Source: Bacteroides caecimuris (GTDB lineage Bacteria; Bacteroidota; Bacteroidia; Bacteroidales; Bacteroidaceae). From it: 64,000 nt of DNA. Each line of letters begins with the position of its first letter. Position 1 is the stretch's first letter. The DNA is taken from NCBI RefSeq assembly GCF_001688725.2, contig NZ_CP015401.2, positions 3,162,001 to 3,226,000 of the forward strand, given 5' to 3'. Below the pieces are notes generated by a model, which had not been told where the DNA came from, ran no database searches, and worked only from the letters and a program-made list of their open reading frames with translations. The translations under genes and the position numbers were made by a program. Positions 13,805-20,021 of this stretch are shown one piece after another.

Positions 13805-14848
13805 TTAATTATTTTCCGGACGAAGTTTACGAACAGTTACAGCAGTCTGCCACATCTCGCTTTCGCGTAATTGACGGAGCTCCTCGTTTAACTTTTCACG
13901 ATAATCAGGCTGTGAATTACTATCAATAGAAATCTGTGCTTCGTTACCAGTCTTCACGCTATTATACAACTTTTCAACTACCGGCTTGATAGCATCGTGG
14001 AATGGTCCCATCCAATCAAGGGCACCACGTTGAGCAGTAGTAGAGCAGTTAGCATACATCCAGTCCATACCGTTCTTTGCAAATAACGGCATCAATGACT
14101 GTGTCAGTTCTTCCACTGTTTCATTGAATGCTTCAGAAGGACTGTGACCGTTTTCACGCAATACTTCGTACTGTGCCAGCAACAAACCTTGGATAGCCCC
14201 CATCAATGAACCACGTTCACCTGTCAGGTCAGAAGTAGCCTCGCGTTGGAAAGTTGTTTCGAACAGATAACCTGAACCGATACCAATACCCAGTGCGATG
14301 GTTCTTTCGTAAGCCTTGCCTGTAGGATCCTGATAGATAGCATAAGAAGAGTTCAAGCCACGTCCTTCGAGGAACATAGTACGCAAAGATGTACCCGAAC
14401 CTTTAGGAGCAACCATGATAACGTCGATATCAGCAGGAGGAACTACACCTGTACGGTCGTTCCAAGTGATAGCAAAACCGTGTGAAAAATAAAGAGCTTT
14501 TCCGGCAGTCAGGTAAGGCTTGATAGTAGGCCATACAGACATTACTGCTGCGTCAGACAACAGACACATTACAATAGTACCTTTTTCGCAAGCTTCTTCG
14601 ATACCGAACAAAGTTTCACCCGGAACCCATCCGTCTGCTACTGCCTTATCGTATGTTTTTCCTTCACGTTGACCAACGATTACATTGAAACCGTTATCAC
14701 GCAAGTTCAGTGCCTGTCCAGGCCCCTGTACGCCATAACCGATTACAGCGATTGTTTCATTTTTCAATACTTCACGAGCTTTTTCCAATGGAAATTCGTC
14801 ACGGATTACTACAGTTTCAGTAGTACCTCCAAAATTCAACTGTGCCAT
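13805..14848 (-). CDS. ilvC: Ketol-acid reductoisomerase
   Basis: A 347-residue protein starting MAQLNFGGTTETV. This internal start at 14848 is chosen over the 14920 ATG because the extra 24 residues are low-complexity (NNGWRKSSKTKNKK) and 347 is the usual Bacteroidota length. The Rossmann motif is VIGYGVQGPGQALNL near 35, followed by VGQREGKTYDKA. The C-terminal knotted domain has the metal-binding region (TSDLTGERGSLMGAIQG). It catalyses the second common step of valine, isoleucine and leucine synthesis and is the last gene of the ilv operon, 64 bp after the thioesterase gene. Confidence 0.95.
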   Translation of the reverse strand: MAQLNFGGTTETVVIRDEFPLEKAREVLKNETIAVIGYGVQGPGQALNLRDNGFNVIVGQREGKTYDKAVADGWVPGETLFGIEEACEKGTIVMCLLSDAAVMSVWPTIKPYLTAGKALYFSHGFAITWNDRTGVVPPADIDVIMVAPKGSGTSLRTMFLEGRGLNSSYAIYQDPTGKAYERTIALGIGIGSGYLFETTFQREATSDLTGERGSLMGAIQGLLLAQYEVLRENGHSPSEAFNETVEELTQSLMPLFAKNGMDWMYANCSTTAQRGALDWMGPFHDAIKPVVEKLYNSVKTGNEAQISIDSNSQPDYREKLNEELRQLRESEMWQTAVTVRKLRPENN

Positions 14849-14912
14849 TTTTTTGTTTTTAGTTTTTGATGACTTACGCCATCCGTTATTAATTGGTTTT
14901 ATATTCTCACAT

Positions 14913-15656
14913 TTATTCAAATATCACTTTTGAGCGGCAAACAACTTCGTTGCCATTCTTCTTCACTTCTACGTGAAACTCGTTTGAGTTCACTTCATCG
15001 CAGAAGAAAGAGAGTTCATCACCAAAATAGCTTTCCGCCACATACGCCATTTCAAAACGGCGGATACGTTTGGTCTTATACAGTTCAATCGGGAACAAAT
15101 CAAGGATATGTTCGATGTAACGGATGCTGTTTACATGACCGTTGATATCTATATCACTGTATTTTGCCGTCAGGGTAGCTATCGGCTGATCGCTTGTCAC
15201 TTTGATGCGTGAAGGCTTTTCAATCGGGCAAGGCTCATCACAGACATAATCTACGATACTTCCCCCATGCAAAGTCAACAAGTCGGCAGGCTTGCGGGTA
15301 TTGAGACTAATCATTGCCCATACGGAACGTGCGTAGCCAATCTTCTTCCCATCCTTATCAATAATAGCAAAATTACGATCAGTAAACAAACGGTAGACAT
15401 TTTCCACCCACGTCTGAACCGAGAAATTTTCATACTGATAAGGCATTTCATCCAACTCAATGGCCAGACGTGAAAGCACCCATGTGTAATTGTCCTCATT
15501 CAACGTTGCAATACCAAAACCACGGTCATTGGCGTGAAAACCCGCACAATTGAGCAGATGATTTCCCAGCACCCCCATAGTCAGACGTCCGTTGAAGTCC
15601 ACATGGAACGGTTCTGCCACAAACTGATAAGTCCCTATTCTATTTTCTTCACTCAT
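14913..15656 (-). CDS. Acyl-ACP thioesterase (hotdog fold)
   Basis: A 247-residue double-hotdog protein of the FatA/FatB-like acyl-ACP thioesterase family. The first domain carries GVLGNHLLNCAGFHANDRGFG and the catalytic-type region DIDINGHVNSIRYIEHILDLFP is near 170, with Asp, Asn and His in the usual spacing. It releases fatty acids from acyl carrier protein. It sits inside the ilv operon between ilvN (5-bp gap) and ilvC. The likely link is supply and release of branched-chain acyl groups, because Bacteroides membranes are rich in iso/anteiso fatty acids; that link is inference. Confidence 0.87.
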   Translation of the reverse strand: MSEENRIGTYQFVAEPFHVDFNGRLTMGVLGNHLLNCAGFHANDRGFGIATLNEDNYTWVLSRLAIELDEMPYQYENFSVQTWVENVYRLFTDRNFAIIDKDGKKIGYARSVWAMISLNTRKPADLLTLHGGSIVDYVCDEPCPIEKPSRIKVTSDQPIATLTAKYSDIDINGHVNSIRYIEHILDLFPIELYKTKRIRRFEMAYVAESYFGDELSFFCDEVNSNEFHVEVKKNGNEVVCRSKVIFE

Positions 15657-15661
15657 TATTC

Positions 15662-16219
15662 TTATTGATTTTTACTTTGGTTATACATAGCTTCCCGTCC
15701 ATCAAGAAACTCATTCACCCGTTCAAAGCAGCTGGTAGTAATCGCTACACGTCCCGAACGAACAAACTGCAAAACACAATTCAAAGCCTTCAGTTCACCA
15801 TAGAGCGAAGTTATATCTTCGCTCATTCCATTTTTCTCGACAATAGAAAATACCGGATTGACTTCCACTATACGTGCATTGTATCTACGGATTAGCTTGG
15901 ATGCTTCCGGATTCTCCTGAAAAGCAGGAGTAGACACCTTATATAATGCAATCTCGTGGAAATAAATCTCATCCTCTGTGAAATAATGTGCCTGAATCAC
16001 GTCGATCTTCTTTTCGATCTGTTTCACTACTTTCTCAATGATATCCTTATCAGTCCAGGCAGTTATCGTATACTTATGTACACCTTTAATAGAAGAAGCA
16101 GACACATTCAGACTCTCAATATTTATTTGCCGACGGGTAAATACAGCAGTTACCTGATTCAGCAATCCAGCTATATTCTCCGAATGAACAATGATTGTAT
16201 ATAACGTTTTATCACTCAT
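15662..16219 (-). CDS. ilvN: Acetolactate synthase small (regulatory) subunit
   Basis: A 185-residue protein from ATG 16219 (MSDKTLYTIIVHSENIAGLL). The longer frame back to 16270 is rejected because its extra residues come from a dispersed repeat. The N-terminal ACT domain (about 5-75) includes VFTRRQINIESLNVSAS, and a second ACT-like region is near 95-165. The regulatory subunit binds valine and activates the IlvB catalytic subunit, whose gene lies just upstream. The next gene (thioesterase) starts 5 bp later. Confidence 0.93.
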   Translation of the reverse strand: MSDKTLYTIIVHSENIAGLLNQVTAVFTRRQINIESLNVSASSIKGVHKYTITAWTDKDIIEKVVKQIEKKIDVIQAHYFTEDEIYFHEIALYKVSTPAFQENPEASKLIRRYNARIVEVNPVFSIVEKNGMSEDITSLYGELKALNCVLQFVRSGRVAITTSCFERVNEFLDGREAMYNQSKNQ

Positions 16220-16228
16220 AATTCTATT

Positions 16229-16276
16229 TTTTTTAATGCGGACCCTCAACTCTCCATTCTCAACTCTCAACTTCTC
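16229..16276. repeat. Degenerate AGTTGAG tandem repeat between ilvB and ilvN
   Basis: On the minus strand the segment reads as successive AGTTGAG-like heptamers with one AATGGAG variant. Short degenerate tandem repeats of this kind recur in Bacteroides intergenic gaps. Here it lies inside an operon between two subunits of one enzyme, with no terminator-like hairpin. Confidence 0.6.
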
Positions 16277-17971
16277 CTAGCACTCCAGCAACATCTGGTT
16301 TACCGAACCACCCGGAGGAGTCATCGGCAAAACATTGCCTTCTTCCACCACGCAGGCTTCGAGCAGGAACGGACCGTCCGTTGCCAGCATTTCAGCAATA
16401 GCTTCCTTCAGTTCTTCACGAGTGAAAACACGCTTGGAAGGAATATCATAAGCCGAAGCCACTTTCATATAATCCGGATTCAACATCGGGGTAAACGAAT
16501 AGCGACGATTAAAAAACATAGCTTGCCACTGGCGTACGTTTCCGAGGTAATTATTGTTCAGGCAGATAATCTTCACGGGAGCTTTCTGCTCCATAATCGT
16601 ACCCAGTTCCTGAATATTCATTTGCAGTCCGCCATCTCCCATAAATACGCATACGGTACGTTCCGGTGCTCCGAAAGTTGCCCCGATAGCTGCGGGAAGT
16701 CCGAAGCCCATTGTTCCAAGTCCTCCGGAAGTAATGATACTGCGTTCTTTCGTATATTTAAAGTAGCGTGCAGACATCATCTGATTTTGACCTACATCTG
16801 TTACCAAAACAGCTTCATGGTGAGTAGCATCACTAACCGCACGTACCACTTCTCCCATACTCAAAGAGTTTGTGGCAGGATGAAGTTCGGGACGGATTAC
16901 TTTTTCCTCCTCTACTTTCTCATATTCTTTGAAGCTATCAACCCATTCGGTATGAGTGTTCTTTTTCAGGAGTTTCGTCACAGAAGCCAGTGTTTCCTTG
17001 CAATCTCCCAATACAGCTACATCTACCTTTACATTCTTATTAACTTCCGCAGGATCGATATCAAAATGAATCACTTTTGCCTGCTTGGCGTAAGTTGCCA
17101 AATTACCAGTCACACGGTCGTCAAAACGCATACCGACAGCAATCAGTACATCGCATTTATTGGTATTGATATTCGGTCCCAAATTGCCGTGCATACCCAG
17201 CATACCTTTATTTAACGGATGCTCTGTCGGCAAAGCCGAAAGTCCGAGCAGCGTACAACCCGCAGGCATATCCGCTTTTTCGATAAACTCGCGCAATTCA
17301 CCTTGCGCATTTCCCAATTCAACGCCCTGTCCAACCAATACAAGCGGACGTTCGGCGTTATTAATCAGTTCGGCAGCGACCTGTACAGACTCCGCATCTG
17401 TATCGGGAACAGGAACATAACTGCGGATAAAATCGACTTTCGTCGGTTCATATTTCGTTTTCTCCACTTGCGCATTTTTGGCAAAGTCCAGCACCACCGG
17501 ACCGGGACGGCCACTACGGGCAATGTAAAACGCACGTGCCACCGCCCAAGCTACATCTTCCGCACGGCGGATCTGATAGCTCCATTTAGCGATCGGCTGT
17601 GTGATACCTACCAGGTCAACCTCCTGAAAAGCATCTGTTCCGAGAAAACCCGTTCCTACCTGTCCGGCAATCACCACGATAGGCGTACTATCGATCATTG
17701 CATCTGCAATGCCTGTTACCGTATTGGTTGCTCCGGGACCGCTCGTCACCAGGCAAACACCTACTTCACCCGATACACGGGCATAGCCCTGTGCCGCATG
17801 AGCTGCTCCCTGTTCGTGACGAACCAAGATATGGTTTAATATATTTTGATGATCGTACAAGGCATCGAATACCGGCATGATAGAGCCACCTGGATAACCA
17901 AAAATGGTAGTCACTCCCTGATGTTCCAAAGAACGCATCAGAGCCTCTGCACCTGTTATTAAATCTTTCAT
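16277..17971 (-). CDS. ilvB: Acetolactate synthase large (catalytic) subunit
   Basis: A 564-residue thiamine-diphosphate enzyme. N-terminal domain: MRSLEHQGVTTIFGYPGG with the catalytic Glu in LVRHEQGAAHAAQGYARVSG near 52. Central FAD domain: LVLVGQGVELGNAQ near 210. C-terminal TPP/Mg motif: FMGDGGLQMNIQELGT near 435, completed by CLNNNYLGNVRQWQ. The C-terminal sequence LPMTPPGGSVNQMLLE is typical of biosynthetic, FAD-containing acetolactate synthases rather than catabolic AlsS. It forms acetolactate or acetohydroxybutyrate from pyruvate and pairs with IlvN downstream. It starts 20 bp after ilvD, with a short AT-rich repeat-like gap between them. Confidence 0.95.
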   Translation of the reverse strand: MKDLITGAEALMRSLEHQGVTTIFGYPGGSIMPVFDALYDHQNILNHILVRHEQGAAHAAQGYARVSGEVGVCLVTSGPGATNTVTGIADAMIDSTPIVVIAGQVGTGFLGTDAFQEVDLVGITQPIAKWSYQIRRAEDVAWAVARAFYIARSGRPGPVVLDFAKNAQVEKTKYEPTKVDFIRSYVPVPDTDAESVQVAAELINNAERPLVLVGQGVELGNAQGELREFIEKADMPAGCTLLGLSALPTEHPLNKGMLGMHGNLGPNINTNKCDVLIAVGMRFDDRVTGNLATYAKQAKVIHFDIDPAEVNKNVKVDVAVLGDCKETLASVTKLLKKNTHTEWVDSFKEYEKVEEEKVIRPELHPATNSLSMGEVVRAVSDATHHEAVLVTDVGQNQMMSARYFKYTKERSIITSGGLGTMGFGLPAAIGATFGAPERTVCVFMGDGGLQMNIQELGTIMEQKAPVKIICLNNNYLGNVRQWQAMFFNRRYSFTPMLNPDYMKVASAYDIPSKRVFTREELKEAIAEMLATDGPFLLEACVVEEGNVLPMTPPGGSVNQMLLEC

Positions 17972-17991: not shown

Positions 17992-19800
17992 CTATTCAAT
18001 GATTCTCACCGCTCCCTTATCGGCAGAGCTTACCATACTGGCATACGCCTTCAGGCTCTTCGGTACATAACGGTCACGAGTGACAGGAGTCATCGGACGG
18101 GCAGCCAGTTCTTCATCCGTCAGTCGCACGTTGATCTTCCGGGCCGGAATATCGATTTCGATAATATCTCCGTCTACAATCTTTCCGATATTACCTCCAG
18201 CTGCCGCTTCAGGAGAAATATGTCCGATACTCAATCCGGAAGTTCCACCGCTGAAACGTCCGTCGGTAATCAAGGCACATTCTTTTCCGAGATGACGGGA
18301 TTTTATATAAGAGGTAGGATAAAGCATTTCCTGCATACCGGGACCACCCTTCGGACCTTCGTGCGTGATGACGACAACATCGCCACTGATGACTCGGCCT
18401 CCGAGGATGCCTTCACAGGCTGCTTCTTGCGAATCAAAGACTTTAGCAGGTCCGGTAAACTTCCAGATACTTTCGTCTACCCCTGCTGTTTTTACTACAC
18501 AACCGTCTTGAGCAATATTGCCTTTCAATACGGCCAGTCCGCCGTCTTTACTGTAAGCATGTTCCAAGTCACGGATACACCCGTTTGCACGGTCCTTATC
18601 CAGTTCCTTATAGTACATACCTTGTGAACCAAGTACGAGATTAAATTTATTTCCGGCTGCGCTCGAATATTTCTTAATTGCTTTTTCGCTTACATTCGGG
18701 CTGGTGATTGAATATTCATTAATGGCTTCTGCCAGTGACATTCCGTCTACCCGGCGAACGGATGTATCTATCAAACCGCCCTTTGCCAGTTCGTCCATAA
18801 TGGCAATGATACCACCGGCACGGTTTACATCTTGAATATGATATTTCTGTGTATTGGGAGCCACCTTGCAGAGACAAGGAGTCTTGCGGGAAAGCATGTC
18901 AATATCATCCATCTTGAAGTCTACTTCTGCTTCGTGAGCAACAGCCAACAAGTGAAGAACCGTATTGGTAGAACCACCCATTGCTATATCCAGCGTCATG
19001 GCATTCAAGAAAGCCTGACGGGTAGCGATGCTACGAGGAAGTACACTCTCGTCTCCTTCTTCATAATATAATTTTGCATTTTTCACGATCAATTCCGCAG
19101 CGTCCTTGAAAAGTTGCGTACGGTTTTCGTGTGTCGCTACAATGGTTCCGTTGCCGGGAAGAGCCAGTCCGATTGCTTCATTCAGACAGTTCATCGAGTT
19201 GGCGGTAAACATACCGGAGCAGCATCCGCAAGTAGGACAAGCATTTTGCTCGATATTCGCTACTTCCTGATCGCTAACACTTTCGTCGGCCGATTTAATC
19301 ATCGCATCGATCAAATCCAGGTGCTGGCCATTCCATTCTCCCGCTTCCATCGGACCACCCGATACAAATACGGCAGGGATATTCAGACGCATAGCCGCCA
19401 TCAACATTCCGGGAGTGATCTTATCGCAATTGCTGATACATACCATTGCATCCGCCTTGTGCGCATTGACCATATATTCTACGCTGTCTGCAATGATGTC
19501 ACGTGAAGGAAGCGAGTAAAGCATACCGTCATGCCCCATTGCTATACCATCGTCGATAGCTATTGTATTGAATTCCGCAGCGAAGCATCCCAGCTTCTCA
19601 ATCTCTGCCTTCACCAGCTGACCGATTTCATGTAGATGTACATGCCCCGGAACAAACTGCGTGAACGAATTGACGATAGCGATAATGGGTTTACCCATCT
19701 GATTCTTCTTCATACCGTTGGCTGCCCATAATGCACGGGCTCCTGCCATCCGACGGCCTTGTGTACTAAACGAACTGCGTAATTGCTTTTTCATTTCCAT
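17992..19800 (-). CDS. ilvD: Dihydroxy-acid dehydratase
   Basis: A 602-residue Fe-S dehydratase for the third common step of branched-chain amino acid synthesis. Cluster and active-site regions are visible: [21 protein letters not shown] near 122, [19 protein letters not shown] near 195 and [23 protein letters not shown] near 505. It is the first structural gene of the ilv operon, directly behind the leader peptide and attenuator. Starts at 19800 (MEMKK) and 19794 (MKKQL) are both possible. A cluster damaged by oxygen would fit the anaerobic host. Confidence 0.95.
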
Positions 19801-19815
19801 CTATCTTTTAATTAA

Positions 19816-19847
19816 AGAGCCTTCCTCACACAAGTGAGAAAGGCTCT
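19816..19847 (-). terminator. Attenuator terminator hairpin upstream of ilvD
   Basis: In the transcript the arms AGAGCCUUUCUCAC and GUGAGGAAGGCUCU pair along 14 positions (one G-U) around a 4-nt loop UUGU, only 16 bp before the ilvD ATG. The following tract is UUAAUUAAAA, so termination by U-run is only moderate. The 5' arm is also the exact complement of an upstream segment (19889-19898), which makes this a switchable structure. Confidence 0.8.
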
Positions 19848-19888
19848 AAATTCTATCTTCTATGGTACGAACACATACAACACAAAAA

Positions 19889-19898
19889 CCTTTCTCAC
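19889..19898 (-). promoter_or_regulatory. Antiterminator segment of the ilv attenuator
   Basis: The transcript reads GUGAGAAAGG here, perfectly complementary over 10 bp to CCUUUCUCAC (19834-19843), the 5' arm of the terminator. It overlaps the leader peptide stop codon (19895-19897). A ribosome finishing the leader would cover it and let the terminator form; one stalled at the Val codons would leave it free. Confidence 0.8.
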
Positions 19899-19972
19899 GC
19901 TCTTGATGGGACCACCACGACGCGAATAATATGCAGGACTGCTAGGTTAATAGATGTATGTAACATATTCAT
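19895..19972 (-). CDS. ilvL: ilv operon leader peptide (25 residues)
   Basis: A short minus-strand ORF beginning MNMLHTSINLAV and ending PSRA, stop TGA at 19895-19897. Eleven of its 25 residues are Ile, Leu or Val, with the control run VLHIIRVVVV at residues 12-21, followed by PS as in enteric ilv leaders. It sits between a consensus promoter and an antiterminator/terminator pair, ahead of ilvD. The role is to sense charged Val, Ile and Leu tRNA by ribosome stalling. Start choice: ATG 19972, with a second ATG two codons later. The gene symbol is by analogy, not homology. Confidence 0.82.
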   Translation of the reverse strand: MNMLHTSINLAVLHIIRVVVVPSRA

Positions 19973-19993
19973 ATTTTCTTTATTTTCGTACTG

Positions 19994-20021
19994 CAAAGGT
20001 AAGGGCTTTTTTATTATATCC
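19994..20021 (-). promoter_or_regulatory. Promoter of the ilv operon
   Basis: The minus strand carries TACCTTTG (19994-20001) as the -7 element, and TTTG lies 19 bp upstream of it as the -33 element. Both match the Bacteroides consensus TTTG-N19-21-TAnnTTTG. The start point would be about 15-20 nt before the leader peptide ATG. Confidence 0.75.

Follow-up and report, generated by a model that had tools for sequence, protein, structure and literature searches.

The ilvD-ilvB-ilvN-(thioesterase-like ORF)-ilvC operon of Bacteroides caecimuris is very probably controlled by a classical leader-peptide, ribosome-mediated transcription attenuator, as judged from the sequence and its relatives, and isoleucine, leucine and valine would most likely be sensed through the speed of the ribosome on the leader peptide. 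The window, i.e. the whole 64 000-nt stretch of DNA that was analysed, carries the element on its minus strand; its parts are listed in Table 1 together with a second leader found elsewhere in the same genome.

In the proposed mechanism, RNA polymerase would start about 15–20 nt upstream of the leader AUG and a ribosome would initiate on the leader. When charged tRNA-Val, tRNA-Ile or tRNA-Leu is scarce, this ribosome would stall in the VLHIIRVVVV run and leave strand 2 exposed; strand 2 would then pair with strand 3 before RNA polymerase has made strand 4, and transcription would continue into ilvD. When the tRNAs are charged, the ribosome would reach the stop codon inside strand 2 and cover that strand, and strands 3 and 4 would form the terminator 15 nt upstream of ilvD. 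We infer leader translation, termination at the hairpin and the direction of the response.

Table 1. Features of the ilv leader region and operon (window coordinates) and the leuA leader of the same genome
Feature	Position	Strand	Sequence or remark
Bacteroides-type promoter	20024–19994	(-)	-33 element TTTG 20024–20021, 19 nt, -7 element TACCTTTG 20001–19994
Leader ORF	19972–19895	(-)	MNMLHTSINLAVLHIIRVVVVPSRA; 25 codons and stop, 11/25 Ile/Leu/Val
P1 5' strand	19962–19955	(-)	UACAUACA; leader codons 4–6, partner 19879–19872
Strand 2 (antiterminator 5' strand)	19898–19885	(-)	GUGAGAAAGGUUUU; spans leader stop codon
P1 3' strand	19879–19872	(-)	UGUAUGUG; immediately 3' of strand 2
Strand 3	19847–19834	(-)	AGAGCCUUUCUCAC; common to antiterminator and terminator
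Strand 4 (terminator 3' arm)	19829–19816	(-)	GUGAGGAAGGCUCU
U tract	19818–19810	(-)	UCUUUAAUU; interrupted, read from sequence
ilvD	17992–19800	(-)	First gene of operon; NCBIfam PRK12448/TIGR00110 above cut-off
ilvB, acetolactate synthase large subunit	16277–17971	(-)	TIGR00118 above cut-off
ilvN, acetolactate synthase small subunit	15662–16270	(-)	ORF as listed, true start probably near 16222; TIGR00119 above cut-off
ORF within operon between ilvN and ilvC	14913–15656	(-)	No NCBIfam match; which we take to resemble acyl-ACP thioesterase
ilvC, ketol-acid reductoisomerase	13805–14920	(-)	ORF as listed; TIGR00465 above cut-off on 13805–14851
leuA leader, same genome	L122 5735–5652; G000:C1 ~3035087–3035234	(-)	Own antiterminator, terminator and 14-bp P1

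The initial annotation had described a promoter and a 25-residue leader with 11 Ile/Leu/Val codons, eight of them in a ten-residue run, and re-reading the minus strand returned the same parts: these residues stand at positions 4, 8, 10, 12, 13, 15, 16 and 18–21, eight of them within residues 12–21. The Bacteroides promoter consensus is TTTG/N19-21/TAnnTTTG, to which the elements upstream of the leader can be compared in Table 1; 57 of 67 leaders have TAnnTTTG at most 75 nt upstream of their ATG, versus 241 of 8957 background 75-nt windows. An antiterminator segment had been placed over the leader stop, and it is found there, since the core of strand 2, GUGAGAAAGG (19898–19889), overlaps the UGA (19897–19895). 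This core is perfectly complementary to CCUUUCUCAC within strand 3, and the helix reaches 14 bp once U.G and U-A pairs are added. As had also been claimed, the same strand has a second partner: strand 3 takes part, with one G.U, in the 14-bp terminator AGAGCCUUUCUCAC-UUGU-GUGAGGAAGGCUCU (19847–19816). The spacer between this terminator and the ilvD ATG (at 19800), previously given as 16 bp, is 15 nt on recounting. The interruption of the U tract UCUUUAAUU is the weak point of the B. caecimuris ilv terminator.

Taken alone, this sequence makes a suggestive case. The 197-nt leader region folds better than expected (z = -4.58; none of 200 shuffles equally good), a signal which comes mostly from the terminator since z falls to -1.14 when the terminator 3' arm is removed (23 of 200 shuffles equally good). 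The whole window contains 14 ORFs of 15–45 amino acids with at least seven Ile/Leu/Val per 10 residues, and the ilv leader is the only one of the 14 with a downstream hairpin plus a competing helix; in 20 one-strand Markov windows, two such triples (ORF, hairpin and competing helix) arose by chance, i.e. about 0.2 per two-strand window. It is comparative evidence that makes the predicted attenuator secure.

The codons of the leaders track the operon that follows: leaders are Val-rich before ilvD and Leu/Ile-rich, without VV, before leuA. The means in 67 ilv leaders are 4.82 Val, 3.60 Ile and 3.39 Leu, with VV in 61 of the 67, and those in 11 leu leaders are 0.64 Val, 4.73 Ile and 4.36 Leu, with VV in none and LL in 10 of the 11; leaders were selected on the density of the three residues together, which gives no bias toward Val over Leu. 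VV is likewise absent from the leaders of the two remaining leuA loci (L138 and L152), which were taken from another script.

The position of the run relative to strand 2 is also regular. The median distance from the last Ile/Leu/Val codon of the run to strand 2 is 11 nt, and 58 of 67 rows fall within 9–13 nt, a spacing partly narrowed by its definition through the last codon before strand 2; the leuA leaders have a broader range of 10–23 nt. Measured against the first base of strand 2, the leader stop varies between 15 nt upstream and 27 nt downstream. With this geometry, a ribosome stalled at the last codon would just free strand 2, and one that has reached the stop would cover it. When the stalled ribosome was represented by a mask in the folding, 58 of 67 loci favoured the antiterminator (probability above 0.5) as long as strand 4 was absent; with a ribosome at the stop codon the figure was 3 of 67, largely by construction because strand 2 lies inside the assumed footprint, and in unmasked RNA it was 47 of 67. 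Once strand 4 has been made, the terminator prevails at all 67 loci in every ribosome state, so the decision of the switch would have to be kinetic. Termination as the default when no ribosome is present is not predicted by equilibrium folding in this model.

The same hairpin could instead act on translation, by blocking ribosome entry at ilvD, with stalling on the leader still relieving the block. Its closeness to the ilvD start in B. caecimuris (15 nt) and the interrupted U tract would suit such an arrangement, as would the reliance of initiation in this phylum on unstructured starts. However, the distance from the hairpin to ilvD ranges from 10 to 214 nt and, for 22 of 69 rows, is greater than 25 nt, which suits termination better than a block at the ilvD start; in addition, 62 of 66 relatives' terminators have at least six T in the 9 nt that follow the hairpin (after GGC/GGT). 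We therefore regard translational attenuation as improbable and retain transcription attenuation as the preferred reading.

The distribution of the leader was analysed in 80 named IlvD loci, of which 65 belong to Bacteroidota and 15 to other phyla according to record titles, with a script that looked for an ATG-initiated ORF of 12–60 codons having at least seven Ile/Leu/Val in 10 residues and a stop 55–290 nt upstream of ilvD. By this script the leader is present in 40 of the 65 Bacteroidota loci, accompanied by both hairpin and competing helix in 36, and it is absent from all 15 loci outside this phylum. The leaders of L021, L053 and L076 came without a competing helix, and that of L037 without a hairpin. 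Some of the contigs among the 25 Bacteroidota loci lacking a leader by script end early: L043 has the hairpin and ends inside the leader, and the upstream sequences of L035 and L048 are likewise short. Another of them, L013, has by eye a leader starting with GTG or TTG and the same hairpin. At the level of DNA similarity, the leader region matched 30 of 61 genomes, namely its own and 29 of the 36 other genomes searched in its genus, and none of the 24 genomes from other genera. Close relatives lacking the ORF or the complementarity had been named as what would speak against the attenuator; all 30 loci fetched keep the leader, the hairpin and the competing helix, although they were chosen by leader DNA similarity and thus form a biased sample.

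Compensatory changes had been called for in both stems, and they are clear in the terminator and fewer in the antiterminator. They were counted in alignment A1, which holds 50 of 66 stretches; the stretches omitted were a single near-duplicate and 15 that are divergent or tandem, and the percentages of pairing are flattered because 15 of the 16 omitted stretches are of the latter kind. In the terminator, 95.3% of 695 cells are paired, versus 43.1–71.0% when the arms are slid by 1–3 columns, and eight pairs have changes on both sides, in 29 cells (0 of 500 shuffles). In the antiterminator, 94.4% of 592 cells are paired versus 45.5–57.9% when slid; nine cells are changed on both sides (0 of 500 shuffles), but only three pairs are, which 64 of 500 shuffles matched. 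The scarcity of two-sided antiterminator pairs follows from the near invariance of strand 3, which is almost frozen, with strands 2 and 4 varying between A and G opposite its U residues. Such freezing is expected of one strand that has to fit two partners. Outside A1, the strands were found by eye to be replaced in the divergent loci L020 (GGAAGGGCU with GGCCCUUCC) and L058 (UGAGAAUGGU with ACCGUUCUCA). The CCUUUCU of strand 3 (19842–19836 (-)) is identical to the last seven bases of the 16S rRNA of the same genome (L122 ~9934–9925 (-)), which is probably a coincidence under a triple constraint and not rRNA mimicry.

A covariance model, R1, was built from A1, i.e. from ilv sites alone, and run on 198 Bacteroidales genomes. 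It matched 50 of these genomes at E ≤ 0.001, and the best 30 of the 50 sites, taken one per genome, lie directly before ilvD (18) or before leuA (12) and nowhere else; at least two of these 30 (L126 and L127) belonged to the training set. The second match in the genome of B. caecimuris itself (E = 5.9e-5) precedes leuA, where the leader peptide is MNQMFIHILLCGIIILLSKVSGSECCA. Because a model trained on ilv sites only also finds sites before leuA, R1 recovers a predicted two-operon regulon (ilv and leu), and Bacteroidales, a dominant gut order, would gain a well-supported amino-acid sensor common to both operons. The leuA sibling had been overlooked in the initial annotation, as had the helix P1 discussed below. 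Three weaker R1 matches in the same genome (L156–L158) are hairpins at gene ends without a leader, and pairing in trans between the ilv and leu leaders through a shared GCCUUUCUCACUU was set aside since leu would then be switched on in times of plenty. Immediately upstream of the leu operon there is a complete rRNA operon (L122 6362–11456).

A metabolite-binding riboswitch or a T-box before ilvD, with the short ORF incidental, would also account for a long structured leader preceding a biosynthetic operon, but we consider it highly improbable: the window gave no Rfam match at gathering thresholds, a search of nine leader-bearing loci that admitted matches up to E = 5 gave no T-box, the codons of the ORF track the operon, and strand 2 sits at the end of the leader in most loci. 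Nor do we give appreciable weight to a plain hairpin and short ORF devoid of regulatory meaning, whether a product of chance (for which the figure of about 0.2 triples per window leaves some room) or the leftover terminator of an upstream transcript, in view of the conservation, covariation and gene context. The classical ribosome-mediated logic put forward from the first reading thus gains support from the retained leader, codons, terminator and antiterminator together with a codon content matched to the operon.

In the minimum-energy fold of the B. caecimuris leader, early leader codons pair with the bases directly 3' of strand 2. This helix, P1, was scored in other species as the best helix between leader codons 2–15 and the 26 nt after strand 2. 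Strands from the same locus scored 15.92 in 65 rows, against 13.50 when swapped between species (sd 0.29; maximum 14.54 of 2000), and 15.38 against 12.64 (sd 0.49) in 25 non-redundant rows, with none of 5000 permutations as good. The same held for rows fetched later: 17.92 against 13.80 (sd 0.71) in 13 leuA rows and 15.88 against 13.46 (sd 0.66) in 13 ilvD rows (0 of 5000 permutations in each case), the latter remaining from 18 loci of which three had no leader by that script and two had been used previously. Examples are ACGUACAU with AUGUACGU (L101), AUACAACAA with UUGUUGUAU (L106) and GUUACUAAU with AUUAGUAAC (L008). P1 is weak in some loci (5 bp in L136, 4 bp in L149), and in L003, L004, L006, L096 and L103 the best match lies further along the leader. 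On these comparisons, P1 appears as a further conserved, covarying part of the predicted attenuator. Another pairing of the minimum-energy fold, between a 5'-UTR strand GUACGAA and UUCGUAC, was dropped, being lost by eye even in the nearest relatives.

P1 is nested with respect to the terminator and crosses the antiterminator; in the minimum-energy fold it extends toward strand 2, and the antiterminator is still favoured in the 47 unmasked loci counted above. It may serve as a protector, a pause hairpin, a pseudoknot partner or a lock on the leader start. More tentatively, and with the odds rather against it, P1 could be a third essential helix, forming a pseudoknot in the order 1 < 2 < 1' < 3 that locks the leader start or the antiterminator. 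Shutting the leader start is conceivable because this phylum, lacking Shine-Dalgarno pairing, depends on open start regions. If so, P1 would lock the start once RNA polymerase has passed, only the first ribosome would vote, and the element would represent a variant classical attenuator whose leader initiation is coupled to antitermination.

The attenuator appears to have been lost in some lineages. TAnnTTTG lies at most 75 nt upstream of ilvD in 11 of 14 Prevotella-type leaderless loci (L019, L022–L024, L026, L029, L030, L032–L036, L041 and L044), versus the same 241 of 8957 background windows; the 14 were hand-picked from the 25 leaderless loci, and eight are titled Prevotella or Prevotellaceae. 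A proximal promoter thus seems to have taken the place of the putative attenuator in these loci, which would illustrate how such a switch is replaced. Two loci titled Prevotellaceae (L009 and L014) retain the leader. Conversely, tandem leaders precede ilvD in L060, L070 and L073 (Marinifilum, Labilibaculum and a Marinifilaceae bin), each leader of L070 having its own hairpin, and L145 also has tandem leaders, with two R1 matches 160 bp apart. More generally, the triple pairing would constrain evolution, strand 3 being near-invariant across the order while its partners drift via G.U.

In enterobacteria, the leaders of ilvGMEDA, ilvBN and leuABCD have runs of branched-chain codons and mutually exclusive hairpins, their stop codons overlap the antiterminator strand, and both ilv and leu operons are regulated. 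The element described here resembles them in its codon runs, the overlap of stop and antiterminator, the exclusive hairpins and the involvement of both operons; it differs in its Bacteroidales host without Shine-Dalgarno pairing, in having ilvD as the first gene and in a helix P1 that starts right after the leader AUG. Classical attenuation requires a ribosome close behind RNA polymerase, and the element would for that reason be a natural reporter of transcription-translation coupling, of use in a phylum whose ribosomes skip Shine-Dalgarno pairing. That Bacteroidia ribosomes do not recognise Shine-Dalgarno sequences is stated in the accessible part of PMC9976891.

Attenuators of this kind are already known, including in Bacteroidota. 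The authors of a 2010 paper considered leader-peptide systems to be known only in Proteobacteria and Actinobacteria, apart from ermC, in the part of the text available (PMC2965389), and the available part of PMC2864571 lists Bacteroid-trp and Termite-leu. Bacteroid-trp is also a leader from Bacteroidetes, with an ORF rich in codons for the end product and a U-tract hairpin before the operon, but it concerns trp genes and Trp codons and has another sequence; its model (RF01692) gave no match in the window or on the leuA leader of the same genome. Nine loci, five of them from termite guts, gave no match to Termite-leu. For Flavobacterium psychrophilum, likewise of this phylum, 'strong clues' have been described for leader-peptide attenuation ahead of operons for amino-acid biosynthesis, in excerpts that name no ilv or leu case (PMC9723704). 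Short ORFs 'reminiscent of leader peptides' have been described in 5' UTRs of B. thetaiotaomicron, ilv being absent from the accessible portion of that account (PMC7366714). The uORF, or ilvB motif, of Corynebacterium ilvBNC is likewise rich in Ile/Leu/Val and is followed by a terminator and an antiterminator before an ilv operon, but the phylum and operon order are different and, from the excerpts available, the sequence is apparently unrelated (PMC10272879, PMC11109978). The Veillonella ilvD motif WRC-18-2 is a structured RNA before ilvD, with a terminator in some cases; as presented in the available text, it is confined to Veillonella and proposed as a weak riboswitch candidate (PMC8632094).

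The initial annotation had known of no characterised case in Bacteroides. In the literature searched (mainly open articles, without supplements, and partly excerpts), no experimental or descriptive paper on a Bacteroides ilv or leu attenuator was found, but a predicted relative from the phylum, Bacteroid-trp, was already catalogued. No family of Rfam 15 reached its gathering score on the ilv and leu leaders searched, the only matches being sub-threshold ones to Thr_leader (25–26 bits versus 55) on L028 and on the opposite strand of L130. The additions made here are thus the candidate helix P1 and a predicted Bacteroidales-wide family of ilv/leu leaders for which these searches found no Rfam entry.

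Other amino-acid operons of this genome were also considered. Upstream of thrA (L124 ~3156–3097 (-)) there is an ORF, MMKYYPHTVTSMCTMTLRG, with four Thr codons and no clear terminator, for which no claim is made. The trp leader matches Bacteroid-trp (RF01692) with 111.6 bits (L123 1902–2046 (+)); its peptide, identified by eye before trpB, is MRTMLVNTYWWWRPLQLRQS, with a WWW run. A his leader, MKYTTTHHHHFPNE (L121 865–909 (+)), for which the Rfam search gave no family, precedes hisG and is followed by a U-tailed hairpin at about 957–983 (by eye). Its competing strand lies 3' of the stop codon, and AUAUACAA with UUGUGUAU would, by eye, make a P1-like helix.
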